DNA from: Ferruginibacter sp.
GTDB lineage: Bacteria > Bacteroidota > Bacteroidia > Chitinophagales > Chitinophagaceae
Reading direction: 5' to 3'
Assembly: GCA_013141435.1 (NCBI GenBank)
Contig: JABFQZ010000040.1
Coordinates: forward strand, 1 to 64,000
Length of the DNA: 64,000 bases
Positions 2,778-45,791 of this stretch are shown here, in pieces (position 1 is the stretch's first letter; each line of letters starts with the position of its first letter). The position numbers and the translations under genes are program-made. The notes below the pieces were generated by a model. The model did no database searches. It was not told the DNA's origin and worked only from the letters and a program-made list of their open reading frames with translations.

Positions 2778-4646
2778 TCACCTACCCATATACACCATCA
2801 ATATTTGTACATCGCTTGGGTTTACACCACTTATACGGCTTGCTTGACCTAGTGTACGTGGTTGTATTTTTTTAAATTTTTGTTTAGCTTCGTTACCCAA
2901 ACTTACTAATTTGTCGTAATTAAAATCTTGTGGAATTGCAAGGTTTTCTAATTGGCTCATTTTTTCTACCAATTCTTTTTCTTTTTCTATATAAGTAAAA
3001 TATTTAATTTGTATTTCAGCTTGTTCTATTACCTCCACATTGTAGTTTTGTAAAGAATCTTTTACAACTGTTACTTTTTGCATCATATCAAATAAGGTAA
3101 TATTGGGGCGTAATAATATTTGCCCAAGTTTTTGCCTAAAGGCTAAAGGTGCAGAGTTTACAGAAATTAAATATTTGTCTGCATCTATTGCATTGATTGG
3201 CAATGTATTAATTAATTCAATAGCTTCTTCTACCTGCTTTCTTTTAATTAAAACATTATCCATTCTTTGTTGCGAAGCCAATCCTAATTTATAACTCATT
3301 TCTGTGAGGCGCAAATCTGCATTATCTTGTCGTAATAATGTTCTAAATTCTGCCCTACTGGTAAACATTCTGTAAGGCTCATCTGTTCCTTTATTAATAA
3401 GATCATCTATCAACACTCCTATATATGCTTCGCTTCGCTTTAATATGAAAGGGGCTTCATCTTTCGTTGCCAAATGTGCATTTATACCAGCCATTAAGCC
3501 TTGGCAAGCGGCTTCCTCATAGCCTGTTGTACCATTTATTTGCCCAGCAAAAAACAAATTCTTTATTAATTTGGTTTCTAAACTAACTGTAAGTTGTGTT
3601 GGTGGAAAAAAATCGTATTCTATAGCATACCCTGGTCTAAACATTTTACAGTTTTCAAAACCGGGAACTTTTCTTAATGCTTTAATTTGTACTTCTTCGG
3701 GCAATGAAGATGAAAAGCCATTTACATAAATTTCTACTGTATTCCAACCCTCTGGTTCTACAAAAAGTTGGTGTCTTTCTCTTTCGGCAAATCTATTTAT
3801 TTTATCTTCTATACTTGGGCAATAGCGTGGACCAGTGCCATGTATGCGACCCTGAAACATTGGGCTACTTTCAAAACCTGTTTTTAAAATATCATGTACT
3901 TCTTGGTTTGTATAAGTTACCCAACAACTTCTTTGTAGTGTTGACTTAAGTGTTGGTTTTTCTAAATAACTAAACCCTACTAATTCTTCATCGCCTTTTT
4001 GTTCTTCCATTTTTGAGTAATCAAGGCTTCTTCCATCTATACGTGGTGGTGTACCTGTTTTTAAACGAGCCGTTTCAAAACCAAGTTCTACCAATTGCTC
4101 TGTTATTCCTGTAGCAGCTTTTTCTGCTACCCTTCCACCGCCAAAGTTTTTTTCTCCAATATGTATTACACCATTTAAAAAAGTTCCATTGGTTAATACC
4201 ACCGAATTACTATAAATTTTATGACCAAGCCCTGTAATAACCCCTTTTACCACACCATTTTCTACTATTAAATTATATACCGTATCCTGATAAAAATCTA
4301 CATTTTTTGTTTGCTCTAGCATTTCCCTCCATGTTTGGGCAAAAAGCATACGATCACTTTGGGCTCTTGGGCTCCACATTGCTGGTCCTTTTGAGCGATT
4401 AAGCATACGAAATTGTATCATACTCTTATCGGTAACTATTCCACTATATCCTCCAAGTGCATCTATTTCTCTTACAATTTGCCCTTTTGCAATTCCTCCC
4501 ATAGCAGGGTTACAGCTCATTTGGGCAATAGTTTGCATATTCATGGTAATAAGTAAGGTTTTACTACCCATATTGGCACCTGCGGCAGCGGCTTCACAAC
4601 CTGCATGCCCTGCACCTACTACTATAATATCGTATTTTGGAAACAT
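2778..4646 (-). CDS. mnmG: tRNA uridine-5-carboxymethylaminomethyl synthase MnmG (GidA)
   Basis: FAD-dependent enzyme that with MnmE builds the (carboxymethyl)aminomethyl group at C5 of wobble U34 in several tRNAs. The 622-residue length is normal. The N-terminus YDIIVVGAGHAGCEAA is the FAD dinucleotide fold; RMLNRSKGPAMWSPRAQ, GPRYCPSIEDK and YEEAACQGLMAGINA are family signatures, and the C-terminal helical MnmE-binding domain is complete (ending in ASRISGVNPSDVQILM). The ATG at 4644-4646 is preceded by a -7 box ending 4 nt upstream, so the mRNA is probably leaderless. In many bacteria gidA lies near the replication origin; parS-like sites directly upstream and the AT-rich region 5 kb away fit that picture here. 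Confidence 0.97.
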   Translation of the reverse strand: MFPKYDIIVVGAGHAGCEAAAAGANMGSKTLLITMNMQTIAQMSCNPAMGGIAKGQIVREIDALGGYSGIVTDKSMIQFRMLNRSKGPAMWSPRAQSDRMLFAQTWREMLEQTKNVDFYQDTVYNLIVENGVVKGVITGLGHKIYSNSVVLTNGTFLNGVIHIGEKNFGGGRVAEKAATGITEQLVELGFETARLKTGTPPRIDGRSLDYSKMEEQKGDEELVGFSYLEKPTLKSTLQRSCWVTYTNQEVHDILKTGFESSPMFQGRIHGTGPRYCPSIEDKINRFAERERHQLFVEPEGWNTVEIYVNGFSSSLPEEVQIKALRKVPGFENCKMFRPGYAIEYDFFPPTQLTVSLETKLIKNLFFAGQINGTTGYEEAACQGLMAGINAHLATKDEAPFILKRSEAYIGVLIDDLINKGTDEPYRMFTSRAEFRTLLRQDNADLRLTEMSYKLGLASQQRMDNVLIKRKQVEEAIELINTLPINAIDADKYLISVNSAPLAFRQKLGQILLRPNITLFDMMQKVTVVKDSLQNYNVEVIEQAEIQIKYFTYIEKEKELVEKMSQLENLAIPQDFNYDKLVSLGNEAKQKFKKIQPRTLGQASRISGVNPSDVQILMVYMGR

Positions 4647-4650
4647 AAAG

Positions 4651-4658
4651 CAAAGTTA
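4651..4658 (-). promoter_or_regulatory. -7 box TAACTTTG for mnmG, 4 nt from ATG
   Basis: Read on the minus strand, TAACTTTG matches the Bacteroidota -7 consensus TAnnTTTG exactly and ends 4 nt before the mnmG ATG. No clear -33 TTTG is seen. With this spacing transcription should begin at or next to the start codon. Confidence 0.5.
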
Positions 4659-4673
4659 CGAGTTGGGGCGGAT

Positions 4674-4717
4674 ACGTATATACATGGGCTACATGTATGT
4701 ATAACCTATGTATACGT
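4674..4717. repeat. Imperfect inverted repeat of GTATA/CATGTA words
   Basis: Alternating pyrimidine-purine words (ACGTATATACAT, TACATGTATGTATA, CTATGTATACGT) form an imperfect dyad in the mnmG-ybeY intergenic region, upstream of the two parS-like sites. Function unknown; it could be a regulatory operator or part of a partition region. Confidence 0.35.
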
Positions 4718-4818
4718 TTCACCACTAGTTACTCAAGGTATATACCGATAAGGTTTGTTGAGCAAGAGGATTGAAATAAATTAATGTAACTAACTCATTT
4801 ATAAGCTATATAACACAA

Positions 4819-4834
4819 TGCTTCACGTGGAACG
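4819..4834. other. parS-like site 1 (TGCTTCACGTGGAACG)
   Basis: A 16-mer centred on CACGTG with arms that match the conserved chromosomal parS palindrome TGTTnCACGTGnAACA at 14 of 16 positions (mismatches at positions 3 and 16, counting n as free). ParB/Spo0J binds such sites to organise and segregate the origin region. It is intergenic and 48 bp from a second, better copy. Confidence 0.6.
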
Positions 4835-4866
4835 TTTTTATATTTTAGGGAGTAATTTTTTTCACA

Positions 4867-4882
4867 TGCTCCACGTGGAACA
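4867..4882. other. parS-like site 2 (TGCTCCACGTGGAACA)
   Basis: Near-perfect dyad: it differs from the palindrome TGTTCCACGTGGAACA at one base (position 3). It sits 1 bp from the ybeY stop codon and 48 bp from site 1 in the same register. Two such sites in one 237-bp intergenic gap are unlikely by chance in DNA this AT-rich. No parA/parB genes are in the window. Confidence 0.68.
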
Positions 4883-4883
4883 T

Positions 4884-5306
4884 CTACTCAAAATACATAC
4901 TTAAATAATCATCTTCTTTATCTCTCATAAATAAAGAATCTTTTTTTGTTTTATCCTTATATCCACAAAGGTGAAGTGCTCCGTGAAAAATTACCCTATG
5001 AAGTTCGGTTTCGAAAGAGGATTGATGTGTAATAGCGTTTTCTTTAACCCTATCTACACTAATGTATATTTCTCCAATGGTAGGCGAAGATTTTGATGCG
5101 CTTAAATCGAATGTTATAATATCGGTATAAAAATTATGTTGAAGGAATTTATTATTTACCTCTAAAAGATATTCATCGGAACAAAAGATATAGCTTAATG
5201 ATTTGAATAGTTTTTTTTCTTTTGTAAATAATATAGGAATAAAAGCTTTTAAGGACTTTCTGTTTTGCAGATTTACTTTAACTAGTTGATGAAAGTATAT
5301 TGACAT
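4884..5306 (-). CDS. ybeY: rRNA maturation endoribonuclease YbeY
   Basis: Single-strand endoribonuclease of the UPF0054 family, acting in 16S rRNA 3'-end maturation and ribosome quality control. 140 residues, as expected. Visible landmarks are LLEVNNKFLQHNFYTDIITFD (family: N..yR..d..TDVLSFp), IGEIYISVDRV, and the metal-binding block HGALHLCGYKD at residues 108-118. The usual block is HxxxHxxxxxH; here the third ligand position, residue 118, is Asp instead of His. From memory this GYKD variant is usual in Bacteroidota, so it is probably not a defect. It is transcribed toward mnmG, with the parS-like sites in between. Confidence 0.93.
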   Translation of the reverse strand: MSIYFHQLVKVNLQNRKSLKAFIPILFTKEKKLFKSLSYIFCSDEYLLEVNNKFLQHNFYTDIITFDLSASKSSPTIGEIYISVDRVKENAITHQSSFETELHRVIFHGALHLCGYKDKTKKDSLFMRDKEDDYLSMYFE

Positions 5307-5382
5307 CTTTTCTTTATTTCGAAATGAATAATTGTTGTTATAGTTTATTTTTACACTTTGTAAAATTAGAAGCTATTTACTA

Positions 5383-5607
5383 ATGTATAAGAAGTTATCA
5401 GAAATAAAGATTGGAAAAGAAGTAATAATAAGAGCTTTTGAAAATGAAGAAATTTTTTTGAAATTAATGGAAATGGGTTGTGTACCTGGAGAAAAAATTA
5501 CAATAAATAAGATTGCTCCATTTAAAGATCCAATTTCAGTATCTATTGCCGGTTATTCGTTAAGCTTAAGATTAGATGAAGCAGAACATATTTTGGTAGA
5601 AGAGTAA
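5383..5607 (+). CDS. FeoA-domain protein
   Basis: 74-residue SH3-like FeoA protein, normally the small cytosolic partner of the ferrous iron transporter FeoB. Visible are LSEIKIGKEVIIRAF, FLKLMEMGCVPGEKITINKIAPFKDPISVSIAGYSLSLR and a C-terminal acidic tail; the LxEMGxxPG and PfxDPi elements are diagnostic. No feoB follows: the next gene is nadD, 50 bp downstream in the same direction. Either feoB lies elsewhere or this is a stand-alone FeoA-like protein. Confidence 0.88.
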   Translation: MYKKLSEIKIGKEVIIRAFENEEIFLKLMEMGCVPGEKITINKIAPFKDPISVSIAGYSLSLRLDEAEHILVEE

Positions 5608-5657
5608 AAATAAAATTTGTACAGTTTTTTAACTTAGAAACTTTGTGGTTCAAAAAA

Positions 5658-6245
5658 ATGAAAATAGGTTTATACTTTGGTTCGTTCAACCCCATACATA
5701 CAGGGCATTTAATTATTGCTAACCATATAGCAAACAATACCCAATTAGATGAAGTATGGTTTGTGGTTTCTCCGCAAAACCCTTTTAAAAATACCAATAG
5801 TTTATTAAATGAACAACATCGATTATCACTTGTAAAAATTGCTATAGAAGGAGAGAAAAAATTAAAAGCAAGTAATATTGAGTTTAAATTACCTAAACCT
5901 TCTTACACCGCTGATACTTTAATTTACTTATCTGAAAAATATCCAAACAATGTTTTTTCAATAATAATGGGAAGCGATGGTTATCAAAATATTGAAAAAT
6001 GGAAAAATTTTAAATATATAATAAATAATTATAATATATTTATTTATAACCGTCCCCATTTTTTTATAAATAATACTGAAAAAAATATAATTATTGTAGA
6101 TGCTCCTTTATTAGAAATATCATCAACATTAATTCGCAAAAATATTAAAGAAAGAAAATCGATTAGATATTTAGTAACAGATAAAGTTATGGAAGAGATT
6201 GAACTAAGGAATTTCTATAATTCTAATTTAGAAAATCCATCCTAA
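5658..6245 (+). CDS. nadD: Nicotinate-nucleotide adenylyltransferase NadD
   Basis: Transfers AMP from ATP to nicotinate mononucleotide to make deamido-NAD, the penultimate step of NAD synthesis. 195 residues from the ATG at 5658; an upstream in-frame TTG at 5643 exists, but MKIGLYFGSFNPIHTGHL is the canonical N-terminus. The nucleotidyltransferase (T/H)xGH motif is in IHTGHL, a PSYTADTL block follows, and the ISSTLIRKNI block gives the ISxTxIR signature. It follows feoA and overlaps the 3' end of convergent chrA by 18 bp. With nadA 2 kb away and the pnuC/nadR pair beyond the putative origin it belongs to a local NAD gene group. Confidence 0.95.
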   Translation: MKIGLYFGSFNPIHTGHLIIANHIANNTQLDEVWFVVSPQNPFKNTNSLLNEQHRLSLVKIAIEGEKKLKASNIEFKLPKPSYTADTLIYLSEKYPNNVFSIIMGSDGYQNIEKWKNFKYIINNYNIFIYNRPHFFINNTEKNIIIVDAPLLEISSTLIRKNIKERKSIRYLVTDKVMEEIELRNFYNSNLENPS

Positions 6246-7475
6246 AAAAATACAAAATAAAACAATAAATGGCGGAGCTAATTTTGTATAATTTAACAAA
6301 ATAAAAGTAGTAATTATAACAAATGCAGATATCAAAAGAGATAAATTAAAAGATTGAACATTAAAATTAACTTTTAGTAAATAAATACCTGCAGCCACCA
6401 TTACGCCTACAACAACGGCATTTATACCTTCTAACGCTCTAAAAACAGCTGCATATTTTTTTAAATATTGCCATACAGGAAAAAAAAATAAAACCAATAA
6501 TGCACTTGGTAAAAAAATGGCAATTGTACCTATAAAACATCCTAACAATTGGTCGCCAGATCCTTTATTTTTCATAGCTATACCACCAGTAAAACTAGCT
6601 ACAGAAAATACTGGACCAGGTATTGCTCTTACAAATCCATATCCTGTAAGTAAATCATCTTTATTTATAGAAATTCTATATTCATTATCTATATTATTTT
6701 GTGTTGGCCTTTCAATATATTGATCAATCATCATAGGTAACAAAACATCACCTCCTCCAAAAACTAAACTACCAAAACGATAAAAATTTTCAAATAAATT
6801 ATATGCTTTTCTGTTTCCCCATTGTTGCTTACGAGCTGTTTCACTTAATATACCTGCAATCAAAAAAATAATAACAAATAACCAAATATTTGTCCATTTT
6901 ATTTGTTTTGGTTTTATTATCTCTTTTTCAGTAATACGCTTACTACTAAAACTAGTTGCTAACCCAGCACAAAATATTAAAAATGGGAAAATCCAAGGTG
7001 TTTTAAAAAAAATAAAAGTAAGAATAATTGCTATTATGAAAATAATACGTGTAATAAAATTATTGATAGATAACTTATATAATTTTATTGTAGCAAATAT
7101 TAAAAACCCAATTGCCATTGGTTCTAAATACTTGAATAAGTTTTGTGATAAATTTTTATCGGGAAATAATGTAATAAAAAAAGATAAAGCTCCCATTATG
7201 ATAGATGCTGGCAAAATCCAAATTACTAACGTTATTACTGCTAATAAAACACCACCTCTTTTATAACCAATTAATGTAATTGTTTGTGTACTACCAGGAC
7301 CTGGCAATAATTGGCAAAAAGAATTAAACTCAACTAATTCTTCTTCGCTAACATAATTAAATTTTTTTACAAAAATTTTAAGCATCATACCAAAATGCCC
7401 TTGTGGACCACCAAATGCAGTAAGACTATAAAAAAATACAGTTTTTAAAAAATTTATATGGCGAAGTAATTTCAA
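6228..7475 (-). CDS. chrA: Chromate transporter, ChrA (CHR) family
   Basis: Inner-membrane protein of about ten predicted helices with two tandem CHR domains, the long form of the family (415 residues). The duplicated signature is visible as AFGGPQGHFGMM in the first half and FGGGDVLLPMM in the second, each followed by a PGP-containing loop (QLLPGPGSTQT and RAIPGPVFSVASF). Family members expel chromate, probably by anion exchange; for many housekeeping homologues the real substrate is unknown. The start is a TTG at 7473-7475 (MKLLRHINFLK). It sits 22 bp after the oxygenase gene in the same direction and could be cotranscribed. Confidence 0.9.
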   Translation of the reverse strand: MKLLRHINFLKTVFFYSLTAFGGPQGHFGMMLKIFVKKFNYVSEEELVEFNSFCQLLPGPGSTQTITLIGYKRGGVLLAVITLVIWILPASIIMGALSFFITLFPDKNLSQNLFKYLEPMAIGFLIFATIKLYKLSINNFITRIIFIIAIILTFIFFKTPWIFPFLIFCAGLATSFSSKRITEKEIIKPKQIKWTNIWLFVIIFLIAGILSETARKQQWGNRKAYNLFENFYRFGSLVFGGGDVLLPMMIDQYIERPTQNNIDNEYRISINKDDLLTGYGFVRAIPGPVFSVASFTGGIAMKNKGSGDQLLGCFIGTIAIFLPSALLVLFFFPVWQYLKKYAAVFRALEGINAVVVGVMVAAGIYLLKVNFNVQSFNLSLLISAFVIITTFILLNYTKLAPPFIVLFCIFLGWIF

Positions 7476-7497
7476 ATTAAAAAATATAAGGAATTAT

Positions 7498-8439
7498 TTA
7501 TTTTTTTAAACCTATCTCTCTTAATCTTTCATCTAAATATTCGCCTGCTGTAGTATCTTTATAACCAATTGGATTTATTTCGGTAATACAACTATCTAAG
7601 CACCTTAAACTCATACTGCTACGAGGGTGTAAAAAGAAAGGAATAGAAAAACGGCTTGTATGCCACAAATCTCTATTAGGGTTTACAACTCTATGTGTAG
7701 TACTTCGTAATTTATTATTTGTTAACCTTTGTAACATATCGCCTACATTCACCACAATTTGCTCAGGAAGGCTTGTAACTGCTATCCATTCACCCTGCTT
7801 AGTTAGTATCTCTAAACCATCAGCAGAAGCTCCTATGAGTAGTGTAATAAGATTTATATCTTCATGTTGCTCTGCTCTTATAGCACTAATTGGCTCAGTT
7901 GTAATTGGAGGGTAATGAATGGCACGTAAAATACTATTACCATGTTGTATATAATTATCAAAGTAAAATTGATCTAAACCAAGATATAATGCTATTGCTT
8001 GCAATAAAGAAGTACCAGATTTTTCAAAACCACTAAAAGCTTCATCAAAAATTTTATTAAAGTGTATTACTTCTTTAACTTTCACATTATCTGGGTAATT
8101 TTCTTCTTTTAAATTGATGGTAGAAATTTGTCCGTATTGAAAAAATTCTTTTAAATCGGGTACTTCACTTCCTTTTGCTTGTTCTTTACCAAAACTAGTA
8201 TAACCTCTTTGCCCTGCAAGGTTATTAATTTCGTAAGATTTTTTTATTTCTAACGGTAAAGAAAAAAATTCTTGTACATTTTTATATAAATCTTCTATTA
8301 ATTTATCTTTTACCCCATGATTTTTAACAGCCACAAAACCTACCTCTTCGTAAGCTTTACCAAGCTTTTGTACGAAATTGTTTTTTCTAACTAAATCGCC
8401 ACTTAAAAAATCAGCTAAATCTACAGATGGTATTGACAT
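7498..8439 (-). CDS. Isopenicillin N synthase-like Fe(II)/2-oxoglutarate dioxygenase
   Basis: Soluble non-haem iron oxygenase of 313 residues. The N-terminal DIOX_N-like region (SIPSVDLADF..VGFVAVKNHGV) is followed by the double-stranded beta-helix core with the HxD...H iron triad: His192 and Asp194 in EQHEDINL, His249 in STTHRVVNP, and the RxS co-substrate motif SRFSIPFF. This architecture is shared with isopenicillin N synthase, gibberellin oxidases and ethylene-forming enzymes; Bacteroidota homologues are annotated only to family level, so no substrate is proposed. It lies between nadA (49 bp upstream) and chrA (22 bp downstream), all on the minus strand. Confidence 0.9.
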   Translation of the reverse strand: MSIPSVDLADFLSGDLVRKNNFVQKLGKAYEEVGFVAVKNHGVKDKLIEDLYKNVQEFFSLPLEIKKSYEINNLAGQRGYTSFGKEQAKGSEVPDLKEFFQYGQISTINLKEENYPDNVKVKEVIHFNKIFDEAFSGFEKSGTSLLQAIALYLGLDQFYFDNYIQHGNSILRAIHYPPITTEPISAIRAEQHEDINLITLLIGASADGLEILTKQGEWIAVTSLPEQIVVNVGDMLQRLTNNKLRSTTHRVVNPNRDLWHTSRFSIPFFLHPRSSMSLRCLDSCITEINPIGYKDTTAGEYLDERLREIGLKK

Positions 8440-8488
8440 AAAAAAAAATTATAAAAGGATAAATTTAAAGTTAATAATAAAATTTTGC

Positions 8489-9502
8489 TTACAAATTTAA
8501 TTTAGCACTTATTTCTAACATTTTATCTATAGGCTTTTTTGCTGCTATTCTTAAATTTTCATCCATAATTATTTCCGGTAATTCATACTTAATACATAGG
8601 TATAATTTTTCTAATGTATTAAGTTTCATATATGGGCAATCATTACAAGCACAGGTATTATTTGGTGGCGAAGGTATAAATGTTTTTGTAGGGTTATCTT
8701 TTTGCATTTGATGAAGAATACCTGCTTCGGTAACTACAATAAATTCTTGAGCAATACTTTTTGTAGCAAATTTTAAAATACCACTAGTACTACCTATATA
8801 ATCTGCTAACGAAAGTATAGGTGCTTCGCATTCAGGATGTGCTAATACTTTTGCATTTGGATGACGCACTTTTAATTTAGTAAGTTTTTCGTAACTAAAC
8901 ATTTCATGAACCATACAAGCTCCATTCCATAAAACCATATTACGCCCTGTTTGCTTATTTATCCAAGCGCCAAGATTTTTATCTGGTGCAAAAATAATTT
9001 GTTGGTCTGCAGGTAAACTTTCTACAATAGCTTGTGCATTACTGCTTGTACAAATAATATCACTGAGCGCTTTCATACCAGCACTACAATTTATATAGGT
9101 AATTACAATATGATTAGGGTGTTTATCTTTAAATGCCTTAAATAATAAAGGTGGTGCACTATCACTTAAACTACAACCTGCATTAAGATCGGGCAATAAT
9201 ACTTTTTTATGAGGATTTAATATTTTAGCTGTTTCGGCCATAAAATGCACACCAGCAAATACTATCATATCTGCAGTGGTGCTTTGTGCCTTTTGAGCAA
9301 GTGCTAAACTGTCTCCTACAAAATCAGCTATATCCTGTATATCGGCATCTTGATAATAATGTGCAAGAATAATTGCATTTTTTTCTTTTTTAAATTTTTC
9401 AATTTCATAAAAAAGATCTAAGGTTGGATCAACAGTTAAATCTAAAAATCCCTTTTTTGAAATTATATTTTCAAAATTTAATTGTGTGTTAATATCTAAC
9501 AT
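8489..9502 (-). CDS. nadA: Quinolinate synthase NadA
   Basis: 4Fe-4S enzyme that condenses iminoaspartate with dihydroxyacetone phosphate to quinolinate in de novo NAD synthesis. 337 residues. Landmarks: [43 protein letters not shown], the first cluster ligand region [27 protein letters not shown] and the C-terminal [17 protein letters not shown] supplying the last cluster Cys. nadB and nadC are not in the window. Its ATG (9500-9502) faces the gene-free region 9503-10069, from which the ppiD-like gene diverges. Confidence 0.97.
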
Positions 9503-9607
9503 AATATGTATTAATACTTATTATTTATATAACCCTCTATTACTATTAGGGCTGTTAATAAGTGTAAAAGTTTATTTTATAAGTGTAGGAAAATCCAAAT
9601 ACTTGTT

Positions 9608-9626
9608 TTATCCACACTAATCCACA
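9608..9626 (+). promoter_or_regulatory. DnaA box TTATCCACA plus adjacent TAATCCACA
   Basis: Perfect match to the DnaA consensus TTATnCACA at 9608-9616, followed after 1 bp by a one-mismatch copy at 9618-9626 in the same orientation, as in DnaA-box clusters of origins. Confidence 0.6.
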
Positions 9627-9690
9627 CAAAAATAACATTTTTATTAAACCTATTACAATCCTTTTATGAATACACTATTAGTTATTTTAT

Positions 9691-39875: not shown

Positions 39876-40667
39876 ATGCAAAAATTTAAAAACAATACAC
39901 TTATTTGTTTGTGTATTTGTCTTCCTTTTGTAAGCAATGCTTGGGGTGTACTTGGCCATCGTATTGTGGGACAAATAGCCGATAGTTATTTAACCCCAAA
40001 GGCTAAAATAGAAATAACAAAAATTCTAGGATTTGAAAGTGTAGCTATGGCTAGCAATTGGCCCGATTTTATAAAAAGCGACCCAGCTTATAAATACTTA
40101 AGCACTTGGCATTATGTAAATTTAAAAGCAGGATTGGTGTTAGATACTTTTACAAAAACGTTGGTAGATGATATTGAAATAGACGCATATACCAAAACTA
40201 ATTTTGTAATAAATGAGTTAAAGGTAAACAAGCTTTTAACTACCGAAACAAAGCAACTTTATTTACGAGTACTTATTCATTTAATTGGCGATGTGCACCA
40301 ACCATTGCATTTAGGGAGGCTAGAAGATAGAGGAGGAAATTCTATAAAAGTAAAATGGTTTGGTGATGAATCAAACTTACATCAAGTATGGGACGAAAAG
40401 CTTATAAATTTTCAGCAAATGAGTTATACAGAGTATGCAAATTATTTGAACCATACCACTTTGCAACAAAGAAAAACTTGGCAAAAGCAAACCCTTGTAC
40501 AATGGCTTTTTGATACCTACCAACTTACCGAAAAAGTATATGCTGAAACTGTGCCCGATAGCCGATTAGATTTTTTATACAATTTTAAATTTGTAGCACC
40601 CATGAATGACCAATTGCTAAAGGGTGGGGTACATTTAGCGGGGGTGTTGAATGAGGTTTTTATATAA
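39876..40667 (+). CDS. S1/P1-type zinc nuclease, secreted
   Basis: 263 residues from the ATG at 39876. Signal peptide MQKFKNNTLICLCICLPFVSNA; after cleavage Trp becomes the N-terminal residue (WGVLGHRIVGQIA), which is the first zinc ligand of the S1/P1 family. The remaining ligands are in WPDFIKSDPAYKY, STWHYVNL, LIHLIGDVHQPLHLG and RGGNSIKVKWFGDESNLHQVWDEKLI. These enzymes degrade single-stranded DNA or RNA and release 3'-phosphates in the periplasm. Trinuclear zinc site looks intact. Confidence 0.94.
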   Translation: MQKFKNNTLICLCICLPFVSNAWGVLGHRIVGQIADSYLTPKAKIEITKILGFESVAMASNWPDFIKSDPAYKYLSTWHYVNLKAGLVLDTFTKTLVDDIEIDAYTKTNFVINELKVNKLLTTETKQLYLRVLIHLIGDVHQPLHLGRLEDRGGNSIKVKWFGDESNLHQVWDEKLINFQQMSYTEYANYLNHTTLQQRKTWQKQTLVQWLFDTYQLTEKVYAETVPDSRLDFLYNFKFVAPMNDQLLKGGVHLAGVLNEVFI

Positions 40668-40750
40668 AGGGTAATAGCCTAGGAATTGAAACATCAAAAA
40701 GTAACTAAAAAATAGGATAAATCGAAGTTAAGCTAACGACATTATTACAT

Positions 40751-40781
40751 TTTTAGGTACTAAAAAAAAGCACTAAATTTG
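40751..40781 (+). promoter_or_regulatory. Promoter of the methyltransferase-kinase-protease cassette
   Basis: TTTA at 40751-40754 (one mismatch to TTTG) and TAAATTTG at 40774-40781, spacer 19 bp; the ATG follows 17 nt later. The only promoter-like element seen in front of the four-gene operon. Confidence 0.5.
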
Positions 40782-40798
40782 TAACTCAATTTTATTTT

Positions 40799-41899
40799 AT
40801 GAGCCAAAAAAAGATAAACATTTCCTATAATGATTTTTCTGTAGTAGATTTATTTTGTGGGGTTGGTGGTTTGACTCATGGTTTTCTGAAGGAGAAATTT
40901 ATTATTGATGGGGGTGTTGACTTTGATAAAAGTTGTAAATATGCTTTTGAAAAAAATAATAAATCTAACTTTTATCATAATGATGTAACCAATTTTTCAG
41001 CAGAAGAATTAAATTCGATTTTCAGTAAAAATAAAAGAAAAATACTAGTAGGTTGTGCACCTTGTCAGCCATTCTCAATATATAATCATAAGAATTCGAA
41101 AGTAAATCGGCAATCTAATTTACCAAATGCAAAATGGAAATTACTTTATTCTTTTGCAGATTTAATTGATAAAGTTGAGCCAGAAATAATTTCAATGGAG
41201 AATGTACCTTTATTAATGAAGTTTGATAATGGAAAAGTGTTTAATGATTTTGTCAAAAGGTTAGAGGCAAAAAATTATTTTATAAGTCACTATATTGTGA
41301 ATGCTCAAGACTATGGTGTACCTCAAAGGAGAAAGCGGTTGGTTTTGTTTGGTTCTAAGCATGGCAAAATAGAGCTAATTGAAAAAACAATAAAAGGGAG
41401 AAAGTATAAAACTGTAAGGGATGCAATTGGATACCTACCACCTGTAGAGGATGGAATTGCTCATCCTAAAGATGCCTTGCATAGAGCAAGAAAACTCTCC
41501 GAATTAAATAAATTAAGAATACAATCAACTTCTGAGGGGGGATTTTGGAGAGACTGGGATAAAAGTCTATGGCTAGAGTGCCATAAAAAAGAATCTGGCA
41601 AAAGTTTTGGAAGTGTTTATGGGAGAATGAAATGGGATGATGTTGCACCAACTATGACAACTTATTGTACTGGTTTAGGAAATGGCCGATTTGGGCATCC
41701 TGTTCAAGATAGAGCAATAACTTTGAGAGAGGCAGCATTGATTCAAAGTTTCCCTAAAAATTACAAATTCATTGATCCAAATGCTACTTTCTCTTCTCCA
41801 AATATTGCAAGACAAATTGGTAACGCTGTACCTGTTGGTTTGGGAGTTGCAATTGCAAAAAGCATAAAAAAACATATCAAGCAAATTGGCAAAATCTAA
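40799..41899 (+). CDS. C5-cytosine DNA methyltransferase (orphan, cassette gene 1)
   Basis: 366 residues, full length for a C5-MTase. Motif I VVDLFCGVGGLTHGF (residues 15-29), motif IV with catalytic Cys89 in GCAPCQPFS, motif VI MENVPLL, motif VIII QRRKRLVLFGS, target-recognition region about 200-290, motif IX-like TLREAALIQSFP and motif X ARQIGNAVPVGLG. No restriction endonuclease or Vsr is adjacent. The 3' end overlaps the next gene by 14 bp, so methylase and GHKL kinase are translationally linked. The target sequence is unknown. As cassette gene 1 it may supply the self mark that keeps the downstream signalling proteins silent. Confidence 0.95.
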   Translation: MSQKKINISYNDFSVVDLFCGVGGLTHGFLKEKFIIDGGVDFDKSCKYAFEKNNKSNFYHNDVTNFSAEELNSIFSKNKRKILVGCAPCQPFSIYNHKNSKVNRQSNLPNAKWKLLYSFADLIDKVEPEIISMENVPLLMKFDNGKVFNDFVKRLEAKNYFISHYIVNAQDYGVPQRRKRLVLFGSKHGKIELIEKTIKGRKYKTVRDAIGYLPPVEDGIAHPKDALHRARKLSELNKLRIQSTSEGGFWRDWDKSLWLECHKKESGKSFGSVYGRMKWDDVAPTMTTYCTGLGNGRFGHPVQDRAITLREAALIQSFPKNYKFIDPNATFSSPNIARQIGNAVPVGLGVAIAKSIKKHIKQIGKI

Positions 41900-44039
41900 A
41901 ACTGAAGAAGATTCTTACGATTCTCTTAGATGGAGATTTGATGTAAATACTTTTCGACTTTTAGGTCGTGAATTAATTACTGATCGAATCACAGCTGTAT
42001 TTGAATTAGTAAAAAATTGTTATGATGCTAATTCAACTTATGTTAATGTGGAATTTCAAAATATTAAGACAAATTTTAAAGAAGCTAAAATTATTATTTC
42101 TGATAATGGCATAGGTATGTCATTTGAAGATATAAGAGACAAGTGGATGGTTGTAGGAACTAATAATAAAAGGGTTACACTTTTCACAGAACCTCCTTTT
42201 AATAGAAAGTTTGTTGGCGAAAAAGGAATTGGAAGATTTGCAGTAGATAAATTAGGTGAAAGGGTTTTAATACGTACTAAGCAAATAGGTTCAAACAAAT
42301 GGCTTAAGATAAATATTAATTGGGATGAATATGAAAATAAATCTTTAGTCTCAAAGGGAAATAATCAACTTTCTCTTTTTACAGAAATCGATAACAAATA
42401 TGAATGGGAAATTGGTGAACCTGATGAACATGGGACACAAATTATAATTTCTAAAATAAGTGATTCTTGGGATGAAAAAGATTTGAATTGGTTGTATAGA
42501 GAATTAGGGAAATTGGTTTCTCCTTTCTATAAAATATTTCCCAAGTTTGATATTTATTTAAATGCTCTAGATTTTGAAAATTTTACCAACAAACAAGTAA
42601 TACCTGAGCCAACAAGATTTTATTCACATCATGCTGAGATCGGATATGATTTAGTCACAAATAAACAAGAAACATTAAAATTTGACAAAGAAAGTGGGAG
42701 TTTAATTCTAGAAAAAGTCGAAATAAAATCATTTGGACCAATACATTTAAAAATGTTTTATTTTAATGAATCAGCTAAAAGGCAATACGGTAAAGTATAT
42801 AAAAATGATGAAACAAGAATCGATGGTATTAAAATATACCGAGATGGTATAATTACAACTCCATTTGCAGAAAGTACTGCAACAATTTCAAAAAGACGTG
42901 ACATTTTAGGAATTGATAAACGTAGATGGCAAGGAACATTTGATAAAGTAGGTACAAGAGAAATTATCGGCATTCTTGATATAAAGCAATCTGAAAACCC
43001 TAAAATAATAGATGCAACTAATAGGCAAGATTTTTTGGATAATCAAGAATATAGGGACTTAAAAGATTTTATTATTTTACAACTTGATGCATGGGGGGAA
43101 TTGAAGATGTATGAACGAGAATCAAAAAGAACTTTAGTAGAAATAAAACTTTTAAAAGCAGGGAAAGAAGTTAAGTACTTTTCTACAGAGCTAGCTAAAA
43201 TAGAGAATGATTTGGTAAAAAATAAGCCGGATTTAAAAGGGGTTTTTGATAATATAAATGCTCAAATTAATGAACTAAATACTGTTATTTCAGAAAGTAT
43301 TAGTGAACAAAAGAAATTTCAAACAGAAGTTACTAGAAAAGAAAATATTTACTTGAGCTTAATGTCTTTACAAGATTATGCTTCGAATATTTCTCATGCA
43401 ATTAGAACTTCTCTCGGGAAAATTAAAAGAATGGCTGAATTTTTTAAAATTAATTTCCCGAATGCCAAATATGATGTTTTTTTTAAACAATATGCAAATC
43501 TAATTTATGATGAAATGGCAGTATTATTGAAGGTAACAGATTTTATGTTGAGTTACGCTAGTTCAGATATTGATTTTGAAGATTTTAGCATTAAGGAATT
43601 AATAGAGGAGTTATTGTTAGAGAATTATTCACAAACATTTAAATCGGAAAAGATAAATGTTATCGTTGAAATAAAAGACGATTTTATTATTAATGCAAAT
43701 AAAAAGTTTTTTGAAGATATATTTCAAAATTTGATAGCTAATTCCATTAAAGCATTACAAGGTATAAATAACAAAACTATAAAATGCTCTGGTTTCTTAG
43801 ATGATAACAACTTTACACTTTATTTCTCTGATAATGGGAATGGTGTAAATAAAGGGGATGAAAAATGGATTTTTGGATTGTATAATACTCGGACTGCTGA
43901 AGCAGGGGGTGCAGGAATTGGATTGTATATTGTTGAAAAAAGAATAGAAGCCCTGAGAGGAACAGTTGAGTTAGTTGAAAATGAGATTAAACCTAAAGGT
44001 GCAACATTCAAAATTAAATTACCTTTCAATAAAACTTAA
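41886..44039 (+). CDS. Double-GHKL ATPase/sensor histidine kinase (cassette gene 2)
   Basis: 717 residues, no membrane segment. It contains two separate GHKL ATPase modules. The N-terminal one resembles HSP90/MORC/MutL-type HATPase_c_3: N-box VFELVKNCYDA (Glu40, Asn44), ISDNGIGM (Asp73) and GEKGIGRFAVDKLG (111-124). A central region and a predicted coiled coil (about 415-500) lead to a histidine-kinase H-box SHAIRTSLGKI with His504 and a second complete HATPase_c (N-box EDIFQNLIANSIKAL, SDNGNGV, GGAGIGLYIVEKRIEALRG). The start is a TTG at 41886 inside the methyltransferase end. Proposed role: the N-terminal clamp senses a DNA or methylation state and the C-terminal kinase phosphorylates the next gene product. 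The architecture is clear; the role is inferred. Confidence 0.85.
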   Translation: MAKSKTEEDSYDSLRWRFDVNTFRLLGRELITDRITAVFELVKNCYDANSTYVNVEFQNIKTNFKEAKIIISDNGIGMSFEDIRDKWMVVGTNNKRVTLFTEPPFNRKFVGEKGIGRFAVDKLGERVLIRTKQIGSNKWLKININWDEYENKSLVSKGNNQLSLFTEIDNKYEWEIGEPDEHGTQIIISKISDSWDEKDLNWLYRELGKLVSPFYKIFPKFDIYLNALDFENFTNKQVIPEPTRFYSHHAEIGYDLVTNKQETLKFDKESGSLILEKVEIKSFGPIHLKMFYFNESAKRQYGKVYKNDETRIDGIKIYRDGIITTPFAESTATISKRRDILGIDKRRWQGTFDKVGTREIIGILDIKQSENPKIIDATNRQDFLDNQEYRDLKDFIILQLDAWGELKMYERESKRTLVEIKLLKAGKEVKYFSTELAKIENDLVKNKPDLKGVFDNINAQINELNTVISESISEQKKFQTEVTRKENIYLSLMSLQDYASNISHAIRTSLGKIKRMAEFFKINFPNAKYDVFFKQYANLIYDEMAVLLKVTDFMLSYASSDIDFEDFSIKELIEELLLENYSQTFKSEKINVIVEIKDDFIINANKKFFEDIFQNLIANSIKALQGINNKTIKCSGFLDDNNFTLYFSDNGNGVNKGDEKWIFGLYNTRTAEAGGAGIGLYIVEKRIEALRGTVELVENEIKPKGATFKIKLPFNKT

Positions 44040-44041
44040 TA

Positions 44042-44665
44042 ATGACGAATAGAAATAAAATTGTTCTAATTCATGATGGGTTAATACCAAAGGTTGATCC
44101 ACTTTTGATAGAACTTCAAATGAAATTTGGAGCAGATCAAGTAATTCACTATGAAAATTCAAATAGCGGATTAGAGTACGTTACTAATAATTTGAATCAA
44201 AAAATTATTGTGATACTTGACATGAATTTTAGCAAAGGTGAATTATCTGGGCTACAGGTTTTTAAAAATATTAGAGAGATTACTTCTTTAGTTTATATTA
44301 TTTTGATAACAGCTGATGAGGTTATTAAAATAAAAAATGAAGATTTAATATTTTTAATTAATCATGATGCCTTCGCCTTGGAAAGTGTTACAACAGATTA
44401 TTCTAAAATTATAGAGTTAGTAGAAGATGCTTCACATAAATTAGACGCTAGAATTGATGCAGTTTTGGAAGATTGGATTTTTAAACAACCCGTTGAAAAA
44501 AGAGATGATCCATATTTAAAAACTAAAGACGGCAAAACTTATACTCTAAATAATATTCTTGAAAGTATAAGACAGCAAACCGAAATTGGAAAAAAAATGG
44601 AAAAAAATATATTAAAACTTACCATTGATTTGCTTTCAAGAAAAAAAACCGAACTAGATGATTAA
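44042..44665 (+). CDS. Receiver-domain protein (cassette gene 3)
   Basis: 207 residues. An N-terminal CheY-like receiver (about 5-125) has VLIHDG with Asp12 in the acidic pocket, phospho-acceptor Asp60 in VILDMNFSKGELSGL and Thr in IILITADE; the conserved Lys before the C-terminal helix (usually in KP) is not evident, the corresponding stretch reading ALESVTTDYSKIIELV. The C-terminal region (about 135-207) is a charged helical domain (EDWIFKQPVEKRDD, SIRQQTEIGKKMEKNILKLTIDLLSRKKTELDD) with no HTH, so it is probably not a DNA-binding regulator. It starts 2 bp after the kinase stop and overlaps the next gene by 8 bp. Likely relay between kinase and protease-like effector. Confidence 0.82.
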   Translation: MTNRNKIVLIHDGLIPKVDPLLIELQMKFGADQVIHYENSNSGLEYVTNNLNQKIIVILDMNFSKGELSGLQVFKNIREITSLVYIILITADEVIKIKNEDLIFLINHDAFALESVTTDYSKIIELVEDASHKLDARIDAVLEDWIFKQPVEKRDDPYLKTKDGKTYTLNNILESIRQQTEIGKKMEKNILKLTIDLLSRKKTELDD

Positions 44666-45281
44666 TACGATAATCGCTTATGATGACAACGATGGAACAC
44701 TTGGAGAATACTTTGAAAGCAGTCACGCTGATATTTATTTAACTATTAAGTCTAATAATTTTGTTGATAATATTTCGATTTCAGGTTTAAATTGTACTGA
44801 AATAAATATCAATTCGATTCTAGCTAAATTTGCTGGGAAAAAATTTATTTTTATTGCACTATCACATGGTAATTGTGATGAGTTTATTTCAAATGAAATA
44901 TTCATTAGTGCTGCAAATGCTCACCATTTTGCAAATTCATTCTTCTACTCAACAGCATGTTCTACAGGTAAAAATCTTGCTTATAAATTAATTGATACTG
45001 GTTGTCATTCATTTATTGGCTATGACGATGAAATAGAAATAATATTTGACTATTCAGATGTATTTTATACATGTGAAAATTTTGGAATTAAAACTTTTCT
45101 AGAAAATGACGAATTAATTGAAGTTTCATTTAATAAGATGAAAGAATTCTATAATTCAAAAATCGATGAGCTTATAACTGGAACTATGGATGACCTTATT
45201 GCTGCCTCTAGTTTAATGAAAAATCGAGATTGCTTAGTTTTGTTAGGAGATTGTAATCTTTCAAGGAATGATTTTAATTAA
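44658..45281 (+). CDS. Caspase/CHAT-like (clan CD) cysteine peptidase candidate (cassette gene 4)
   Basis: 207 residues, cytosolic. A strand ending in SHG (FIFIALSHGNCDEF, His70) and, 31 residues on, a second ending in ACSTG (SFFYSTACSTGKNLAYKLIDTGCHSFIGYDDE, Cys101) give the His/Cys dyad and strand-loop order of caspases, CHAT and gingipain-type peptidases (clan CD). The FIGYDD strand after the helix also fits CHAT/C25 proteins, which often read FIGS. Homology is inferred by eye, not searched. Position as last gene of the operon and translational coupling to the receiver protein suggest it is the effector. Alternatively it is a non-proteolytic Rossmann-like protein. Confidence 0.6.
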   Translation: MINTIIAYDDNDGTLGEYFESSHADIYLTIKSNNFVDNISISGLNCTEININSILAKFAGKKFIFIALSHGNCDEFISNEIFISAANAHHFANSFFYSTACSTGKNLAYKLIDTGCHSFIGYDDEIEIIFDYSDVFYTCENFGIKTFLENDELIEVSFNKMKEFYNSKIDELITGTMDDLIAASSLMKNRDCLVLLGDCNLSRNDFN

Positions 45282-45317
45282 ATAATGATTTTTTAAAATT
45301 TTAGCTAATTTCCTTCT

Positions 45318-45351
45318 AAAATGTCGAATTTTATCAAGTTGGCATTTTCTT
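45318..45351 (+). terminator. Weak terminator-like hairpin after the cassette
   Basis: AAAATGTC (45318-45325) pairs imperfectly with GGCATTTT (45341-45348), with a T-rich stretch afterwards. Located 37 bp after the last cassette gene. Confidence 0.4.
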
Positions 45352-45431
45352 TTTCCTCTATTTCCTATTTCTTATCTTATGTTATCGTCAACAAATTTTC
45401 GCTAAAATAATTTTGTGGAAAATAATTAAAT

Positions 45432-45791
45432 ATGAAAGTTGTTTTAAAACTAGAAGAAGTTGCTATGGCCGCAATGGGCATTTATTTGTTAAGAATATAC
45501 AATTTGGGGTTACCGATTTGGTTATGGGCCATCATTTTTTTCTCGCCAGATATTTCTATGCTGGGCTATTTGATAAACACCAAAATGGGAGCTATTTGTT
45601 ACAATATATTTCACCACAAGGGTATCGCAATTTTGGTTGCTGTGATTGGTTTTTATTTGCATGCTGATGTAATGCTGTCAATTGGCATATTGCTGTTTGC
45701 CCATGCATCTTTTGATAGGGTTTTTGGATACGGCCTAAAACATTTTGATGGGTTTAAAAATACCCATTTGGGAAGTTTAGAAAAAAAGTAA
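45432..45791 (+). CDS. DUF4260 membrane protein
   Basis: 119-residue protein with about three hydrophobic helices. KLEEVAMAAMGIYL, FFSPDISMLGYLINTKMGAICYNIFHH and LLFAHASFDRVFGYGLKHFDGFKNTHLG are the DUF4260 blocks (PDisMlGY, YN..HH, H...DR.fGYGLK....F..THLG). Function unknown. Convergent with the Crp/Fnr gene with a 4-bp gap, so the two are not an operon. Confidence 0.9.
   Translation: MKVVLKLEEVAMAAMGIYLLRIYNLGLPIWLWAIIFFSPDISMLGYLINTKMGAICYNIFHHKGIAILVAVIGFYLHADVMLSIGILLFAHASFDRVFGYGLKHFDGFKNTHLGSLEKK

Follow-up and report, generated by a model that had tools for sequence, protein, structure and literature searches.

The window analysed here (the stretch of 64,000 nucleotides from contig JABFQZ010000040.1 of Ferruginibacter sp.) contains a four-gene cassette encoding a C5-cytosine DNA methyltransferase, a GHKL ATPase-histidine kinase, a receiver protein and a cysteine peptidase of caspase-like fold. 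The anatomy of the cassette is firm: it is a real and conserved variant of a known chassis, undescribed in the papers that could be searched. As to its role, we give an even chance to a restriction-modification-like self/non-self system in which the nuclease is replaced by a suicide protease under phosphorelay control. The four genes are:

40799..41899, plus strand: gene 1, C5-cytosine DNA methyltransferase (366 aa, ATG start)
41886..44039, plus strand: gene 2, GHKL ATPase and histidine kinase (717 aa, TTG start)
44042..44665, plus strand: gene 3, receiver protein (207 aa, ATG start)
44658..45281, plus strand: gene 4, clan CD cysteine-peptidase fold (207 aa, ATG start)

The original prediction, made from the DNA letters, had described four open reading frames on one strand, two neighbouring pairs overlapping by 14 bp and 8 bp and one pair lying 2 bp apart. 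The open reading frame calls agree: genes 1 and 2 overlap by 14 bp, genes 2 and 3 are spaced by 2 bp, and genes 3 and 4 overlap by 8 bp. The residues it had named (H504 of the kinase, D60 of the receiver, H70 and C101 of the peptidase) all carry these numbers.

Gene 1 matches Pfam DNA_methylase (2.3e-63) and carries the motifs DLFCGVGG, PCQP, ENV, QRRKR and GNAV. Gene 2 shows HATPase_c_3 at residues 36-170 (4.3e-19) and HATPase_c at residues 607-715 (9e-21); a HisKA match is weak (0.0035, under the Pfam cut-off), and H504 sits in the stretch SHAIRTSL. Twelve of its residues (E40, N44, D73, G75, G77, H504, N615, N619, D649, G651, G677 and G679) are identical in 12/12 kinases. Judged by sequence, the N-terminus of gene 2 is a paraMORC/HgiDII-like GHKL ATPase and the C-terminus a histidine kinase. 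The N-terminus had been predicted to be of the MORC/MutL-like GHKL kind, with which the HATPase_c_3 domain and a match of 80.8 bits to the BbrUII model concur; the kinase had also been called soluble, and hydropathy fits, the highest 19-residue Kyte-Doolittle mean being 1.01 in gene 2 and 1.42 in gene 3, with no transmembrane-like stretch.

The receiver domain of gene 3 comprises approximately residues 3-138, with D12, D60 and T90, and is followed by a short C-terminal region of unassigned fold. In the receiver alignment D12 and D60 are kept in 60/60 sequences and T90 in 57/60, with S in the other three; D109, within an NHDAF stretch at the end of beta-5, is kept in 58/60. Pfam recognises no DNA-binding or other output domain in gene 3, as expected from the predicted lack of a helix-turn-helix.

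Gene 4 has a single-domain clan CD (caspase/CHAT/gingipain-like) cysteine-peptidase fold with the putative dyad H70/C101. In clan CD the catalytic His follows beta-3 and the Cys follows beta-4; in gene 4 a strand at residues 63-68 leads to H70-G71 and a strand at 94-98 to C101. The dyad stands at the expected strand ends, H70, G71 and C101 are invariant in 36/36 homologues, and the predicted clan CD assignment is upheld. Pfam gives zero matches for gene 4 at E values up to 1, below the gathering scores of CHAT, C14 and C25, and one of the 36 relatives has a weak C25 match (0.0037). Sequence searches of solved structures with the peptidase or its profiles returned nothing useful.

Gene content and order recur beyond chance across divergent genomes. 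A scan of genome contigs with the receiver profile delivered 15 loci (loci carry L numbers below), all labelled as Bacteroidota or Candidatus Kapaibacterium. Mucilaginibacter galii CCM 8711 and Aquimarina macrocephali JAMB N27 are among the named carriers of a complete type-1 cassette. The peptidase lies directly 3' of the receiver in 15/15 of these type-1 loci and the kinase 5' of it in 14/15 (the contigs of L001, L012 and L015 start within the kinase), while a methyltransferase is present upstream in all 11 loci with a complete kinase, one gene being interposed in L003. Across 12 complete cassettes the four genes diverge in step: the identities between cassettes correlate in all 6 gene pairs (r 0.76-0.95; by Mantel test with 2000 permutations, p 0.0005 each). 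The peptidase is the fastest-diverging gene, with a mean identity of 37% vs 52% for the receiver, 61% for the kinase and 66% for the methyltransferase, and its dyad is kept. In L001 an FRG-domain protein (PADLOC candidate PDC-S15) is located immediately 3' of the peptidase (1778-2590).

A second, divergent peptidase family occupies the same position in type-2 cassettes. A search of 395 Bacteroidota genomes for the type-1 peptidase matched two, the window's own and, weakly, G230 (E 1.3e-4); such genome searches score the first few candidates per genome (e.g. 7), so that misses are possible. The weak match is gene 4 of a further complete methyltransferase-kinase-receiver-peptidase operon, L024. 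Other type-2 cassettes are L025 and L026 from the kinase survey described below, L065 from IMG/VR and L066 from a family search, which matched 2 of 299 genomes, those of L066 and L026. Gene order is the same in 5/5, and together with the 15/15 receiver-peptidase pairs this answers the originally proposed check on co-occurrence in the affirmative. The type-2 family has 282 homologues, and among the best 120 some are named 'CHAT domain-containing' or 'Caspase family' in UniRef. GHG and C are invariant in 27 aligned type-2 peptidases, of which four have weak Pfam C25 matches (best 0.0084), and the type-1 and type-2 profiles match at 96.3% probability (E 1.8e-9) with His and Cys aligned. The L025 kinase appears as two open reading frames of 561 and 265 aa (around 5400-7913, minus strand), either a natural split, a frameshift or an assembly error.

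The window receiver and peptidase are rare. Word-limited searches of 5.8 billion proteins gave 67 receiver and 21 peptidase matches, the window's own included. Pattern-based scans of IMG/VR found no relatives of the type-1 receiver or peptidase; a plasmid collection gave no match for the type-1 receiver or two type-2 peptidases, and a phage collection none for the one type-2 peptidase tried. Close to the L024 cassette (3861-9049) lie genes that by eye resemble those of integrases, transposases and mobilisation proteins, and the complete L065 cassette (4548-9669) has integrase-like genes close by on its IMG/VR contig; spread of type-2 cassettes by mobile elements is possible. Integrases beside L024 and L065, the patchy spread (type-1 peptidase in 1/395 genomes) and a restriction-modification-like layout of marking enzyme and potentially lethal output would also suit a selfish addiction module, in which the cassette would chiefly kill cells losing the methyltransferase, like classical restriction-modification, with phage defence secondary or absent. 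Addiction needs a marker and a killer alone, however, and gating by kinase and receiver suits an inducible response; sequence cannot separate the two, and we consider the addiction module unlikely.

Relatives of the kinase carry other effectors. The kinase N-terminus matches 67/395 Bacteroidota genomes at E 1e-8, and 40 neighbourhoods were read, best-scoring places first, with weaker places outside the survey; since the query alignment A5 included L024, relatives of L024 were favoured. Among the 43 GHKL open reading frames of L024-L064, at least 23 have a same-strand relative of the window methyltransferase directly upstream and at least 25 also match the type-1 kinase C-terminus profile. The slot gene was classified, by Pfam or the type-2 profile, in 9 of the 40 regions (L025, L026, L028, L030, L043, L052, L053, L058 and L061); the remaining 31 have a longer receiver-like protein or an unrecognised gene, or were unscanned. 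After the receiver stand HNH_2 proteins in L028 and L030, HNH proteins in L052 and L058 (above cut-off) and L053 (just under), and a metallo-beta-lactamase-fold, ComEC-C-terminus-like protein follows the kinase-receiver pair in L043 (11230-15010) and L061 (1806-5628). The downstream gene of L027 looks HNH-like by eye, for which Pfam gives no backing. The receivers of L027-L032 and L034 are longer (301-337 aa), with RNxxAH near the end in 7/7. HEPN RNases have an Rx4-6H motif (PMC3710099; here and below, citations refer to the portions of the papers covered), which the tails fit, so that a receiver-fused RNase effector is possible; Pfam reports no HEPN in the three long receivers scanned.

In a quick kinase tree (54 rows, pieces <540 aa left out) the 12 type-1 kinases form a single clade (support 100). 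The type-2 kinases fall in an adjoining clade with the HNH_2 and RNxxAH relatives, and peptidase vs non-peptidase needs 3 changes on this tree, in which long branches meet. Exchange shows most clearly between L065 (peptidase) and L030 (HNH_2): the methyltransferases are 75% identical over 403 residues, the kinase N-termini 46% and the kinase C-termini 25%, and receivers and effectors give no useful alignment; L065 and L026 share 69% (kinase), 59% (receiver), 56% (peptidase) and 64% (methyltransferase) identity. From these values it follows that marking enzyme and output half assorted separately.

This exchange bears on whether the peptidase is a signalling part, with receiver, kinase or a single regulator as its substrate in feedback or maturation and the main output elsewhere. 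The small single-domain protein, its tight receiver linkage with an 8-bp gene overlap and the receiver without a recognised output domain are compatible with such a role. Because HNH or metallo-beta-lactamase-fold proteins fill the same slot in chassis relatives, the last gene is suggested to be the output, and a signalling role appears rather improbable. Nuclease- and protease-like genes in one slot, together with the putative RNase tails, point to an output harming DNA or the cell, as in abortive defence.

The mark of METHYLTRANSFERASE, predicted by kinship, is probably GTCGAC, because gene 1 groups with methyltransferases adjoining BbrUII/HgiDII-type restriction enzymes. These enzymes were recognised by model NF050001 with a cut-off of 550 bits, which alone is meaningful: at E 0.001 the model matches 245/247 genomes and 10/14 controls via generic GHKL proteins, and above the cut-off 3/247 and 0/14. 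Seven enzyme places were compared, L067, L068 and L069 above and L070-L073 below the cut-off. The window methyltransferase is 50-53% identical to those adjoining the enzymes of L068, L072 and L073, vs 32-34% for L070 and L071 and at most 43% for the survey methyltransferases; in L067 and L069 the stretch read holds no relative of it. Of the three places above the cut-off, one thus backs the kinship, the other two being silent on it. In a quick tree of 52 rows the 12 type-1 methyltransferases (support 98) join L068, L072 and L073 (support 95), and over the presumed recognition stretch, residues 181-290 with boundaries of our choosing, type-1 members are 61-79% identical to the window's. M.HgiDII is reported as a 5-methylcytosine methyltransferase of GTCGAC, with M.BbrUII as a 5-methylcytosine relative (PMC5867850; a further table row in PMC6329791); the proposed link to this lineage is drawn via the L068, L072 and L073 methyltransferases.

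A restriction enzyme is lacking in the window, as predicted: the kinase (80.8 bits) and the best match in its own genome (82.4 bits) both stay below 550 bits. Among the cassettes a BbrUII/HgiDII-family enzyme above the cut-off occurs in L003 alone, as the extra gene between methyltransferase and kinase (4813-6828, 729.5 bits), so that one cassette holds both nuclease-type and kinase-type GHKL proteins. Vsr genes, known for repair of deaminated 5-methylcytosine (PMC8011034), come after the peptidase gene in three loci, L003, L004 and L011.

Under the favoured interpretation, a suicide protease in the place of the nuclease, the methyltransferase would mark host DNA, with GTCGAC as the predicted site, and the paraMORC-like GHKL ATPase of the kinase would act as a clamp dependent on DNA or its methylation state. 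Absence of the mark, on incoming phage or plasmid DNA or after loss of the methyltransferase, would lead to autophosphorylation at His504, from which the phosphate would pass to the receiver at Asp60. Once phosphorylated, the receiver may release or switch on the caspase-like peptidase (H70/C101), which would cleave host proteins and cause arrest or death of the cell. More broadly, and somewhat short of an even chance, the methyltransferase/kinase/receiver layout with exchangeable outputs may represent a modular 'phospho-restriction' class, in which a GHKL clamp reads methylation and a two-component relay carries the signal to killers (caspase-like protease, HNH nuclease, metallo-beta-lactamase-fold enzyme or receiver-fused HEPN-like RNase). 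The window cassette would then be a caspase-like switch for cell death, gated by methylation, with a GTCGAC restriction-modification lineage as its base.

Several results weigh against the suicide-protease interpretation. The Pfam Response_reg match of gene 3 (5.6e-4) is under the cut-off, and the conserved Lys at the end of beta-5 was not found in the receivers (residues 104-118); with the Lys missing and D109 in its region, receiver phosphorylation chemistry may be atypical. A receiver C-terminal adaptor common to type-1 and type-2 cassettes was dropped, as the alignment of the two profiles, though at corresponding positions, is not significant (E 0.18). Against BbrUII enzymes the kinase N-terminus scores 82 bits and the N-termini of many other relatives score 70-88 bits; being no nearer to BbrUII than theirs, it does not specifically support a shared reader. 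GTCGAC occurs 0 times in the window vs 1.27 expected (0.3 under a stricter model) and 21 times in the whole genome, counts that do not test the site. L010 (3041-4647) keeps the peptidase and a shortened receiver, with a C-terminal remnant of the kinase and no methyltransferase found, a state of either decay or assembly problem. Enrichment in defence islands, another check originally proposed, did not emerge, PADLOC (2023) matching 2/9 flanking genes tried. In the cassette itself PADLOC calls gene 1 a type II methyltransferase, finds type II restriction enzymes as the match of the kinase N-terminus and gives no match for genes 3 and 4. Overall the observation behind the original prediction is confirmed, and its interpretation is supported in part, by domain calls and co-occurrence and not by defence-island enrichment.

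The surroundings of the cassette had been described as unrelated housekeeping genes, and by eye the window neighbours do have this look. Together with the intact two-component residues and a 2021 proposal of signalling that controls restriction-modification (PMC8011034), they would accord with a host regulatory two-component system for an epigenetic or stress response, without a role in conflict. The receiver has no recognised DNA-binding domain, the cassette is rare and patchy, and the effector slot holds nucleases or peptidases, which makes this the least probable of the explanations considered. No empty site was seen: of 25 genomes, the window's own among them, 12 gave a match for one flanking gene and 7 for the other, and by the listed places the two never adjoin each other. 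Third-position G+C is 0.168-0.178 in the kinase, receiver and peptidase genes (41886-45281), about 1 sd below the window mean of 0.218 (sd 0.043, 52 open reading frames), and 0.218 in the methyltransferase gene. The weak hairpin predicted behind the cassette was not recovered, a terminator scan of 40600-45500 giving zero plus-strand hairpins with a T-run, and the promoter-like element predicted in front is unconfirmed, resting on one candidate:

40774..40781, plus strand: candidate -7 promoter element TAAATTTG, 5' of the cassette (from sequence, without statistical support)

TAAATTTG resembles the Bacteroidota -7 box.

If the suicide-protease interpretation is true, unmethylated DNA would be answered by protease-driven shutdown and not by cutting, and a two-component relay would join restriction-modification with caspase-like suicide proteases. 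The exchange of nuclease and protease on one chassis offers a direct route to what the GHKL-kinase reads, the methyltransferase lineage makes GTCGAC a concrete and cheap test, and the cassette is also relevant to the question of which DNA features MORC-like ATPases sense.

Among known systems, the chassis is closest to elements reported by Bellieny-Rabelo and colleagues in 2021 (PMC8011034), who describe kinases of HATPase_c_3/HEF_HK/HATPase_c architecture, Response_reg_2 proteins and C5-methyltransferases, note HNH_2 and Vsr genes nearby and propose HEF_HK/Response_reg_2 as signalling that controls restriction-modification systems. Shared with the window is a C5-methyltransferase that adjoins a kinase-like (HATPase_c_3 + DHp + HATPase_c) and a receiver-like protein. 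The window kinase does not match HEF_HK (PF19191) at E up to 1, whereas the control kinases of L017 and L063, at 100 and 67.9 bits, lie above the cut-off of 24.1 bits; likewise the window receiver does not match Response_reg_2 (PF19192) at E up to 1, whereas control proteins of L017-L019 do. A genome scan with PF19192 gave 3/148 genomes above the cut-off and zero matches in the window's whole genome. The published Response_reg_2 query has about 600 aa vs 207 aa for the window receiver, and the covered portion of that paper names the nucleases HNH_2 and Vsr and no peptidase, in contrast to the window; nor was a peptidase recognised, by eye or Pfam, in the C-terminus of the 528-575-aa Response_reg_2 proteins of L017-L019. 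No paper combining methyltransferase, kinase, receiver and peptidase was found in open-access PubMed Central (subscription papers may be missed). The original statement that no such system is described therefore holds for the exact composition but not for the methyltransferase/HATPase_c_3 kinase/receiver layout published in 2021, and what is new in the cassette is the output, the chassis being known.

The BbrUII/HgiDII (GTCGAC) systems are alike in methyltransferase lineage and in the N-terminal GHKL ATPase of the partner; they have a restriction enzyme, whereas the GHKL domain of the window continues into a histidine kinase, followed by receiver and peptidase. ParaMORC ATPases, tied to restriction-modification loci by Iyer and colleagues (PMC2292703), and VcSduA (GHKL-Shedu), a GHKL-nuclease protein that defends against phage (PMC12137116), have in common with gene 2 a GHKL ATPase at the N-terminus and a setting of DNA conflict; their output is a nuclease or helicase, fused or next door, whereas that of the window is a histidine kinase. 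The paraMORC definition asks for a GHKL domain with an S5 domain behind it in a restriction-modification context; of this the window shows GHKL and a restriction-modification-like context. Kinase-fused Schlafen RNases are reported near BREX (PMC12839542). Caspase-like effectors occur in other conflict systems (PMC7159879, PMC10952713); SAVED-CHAT and type III-E CRISPR TPR-CHAT are linked to nucleotide signalling or to a CRISPR complex, whereas the window peptidase is receiver-linked and single-domain, with no fused sensor. Detocs (PMC11249213), a three-gene two-component defence best described with a PNP effector, likewise passes from kinase to receiver and keeps its toxic output as a separate protein, whereas the window cassette has four genes, among them those for a methyltransferase and a peptidase, a GHKL sensor-like domain in the kinase, and no PNP domain.

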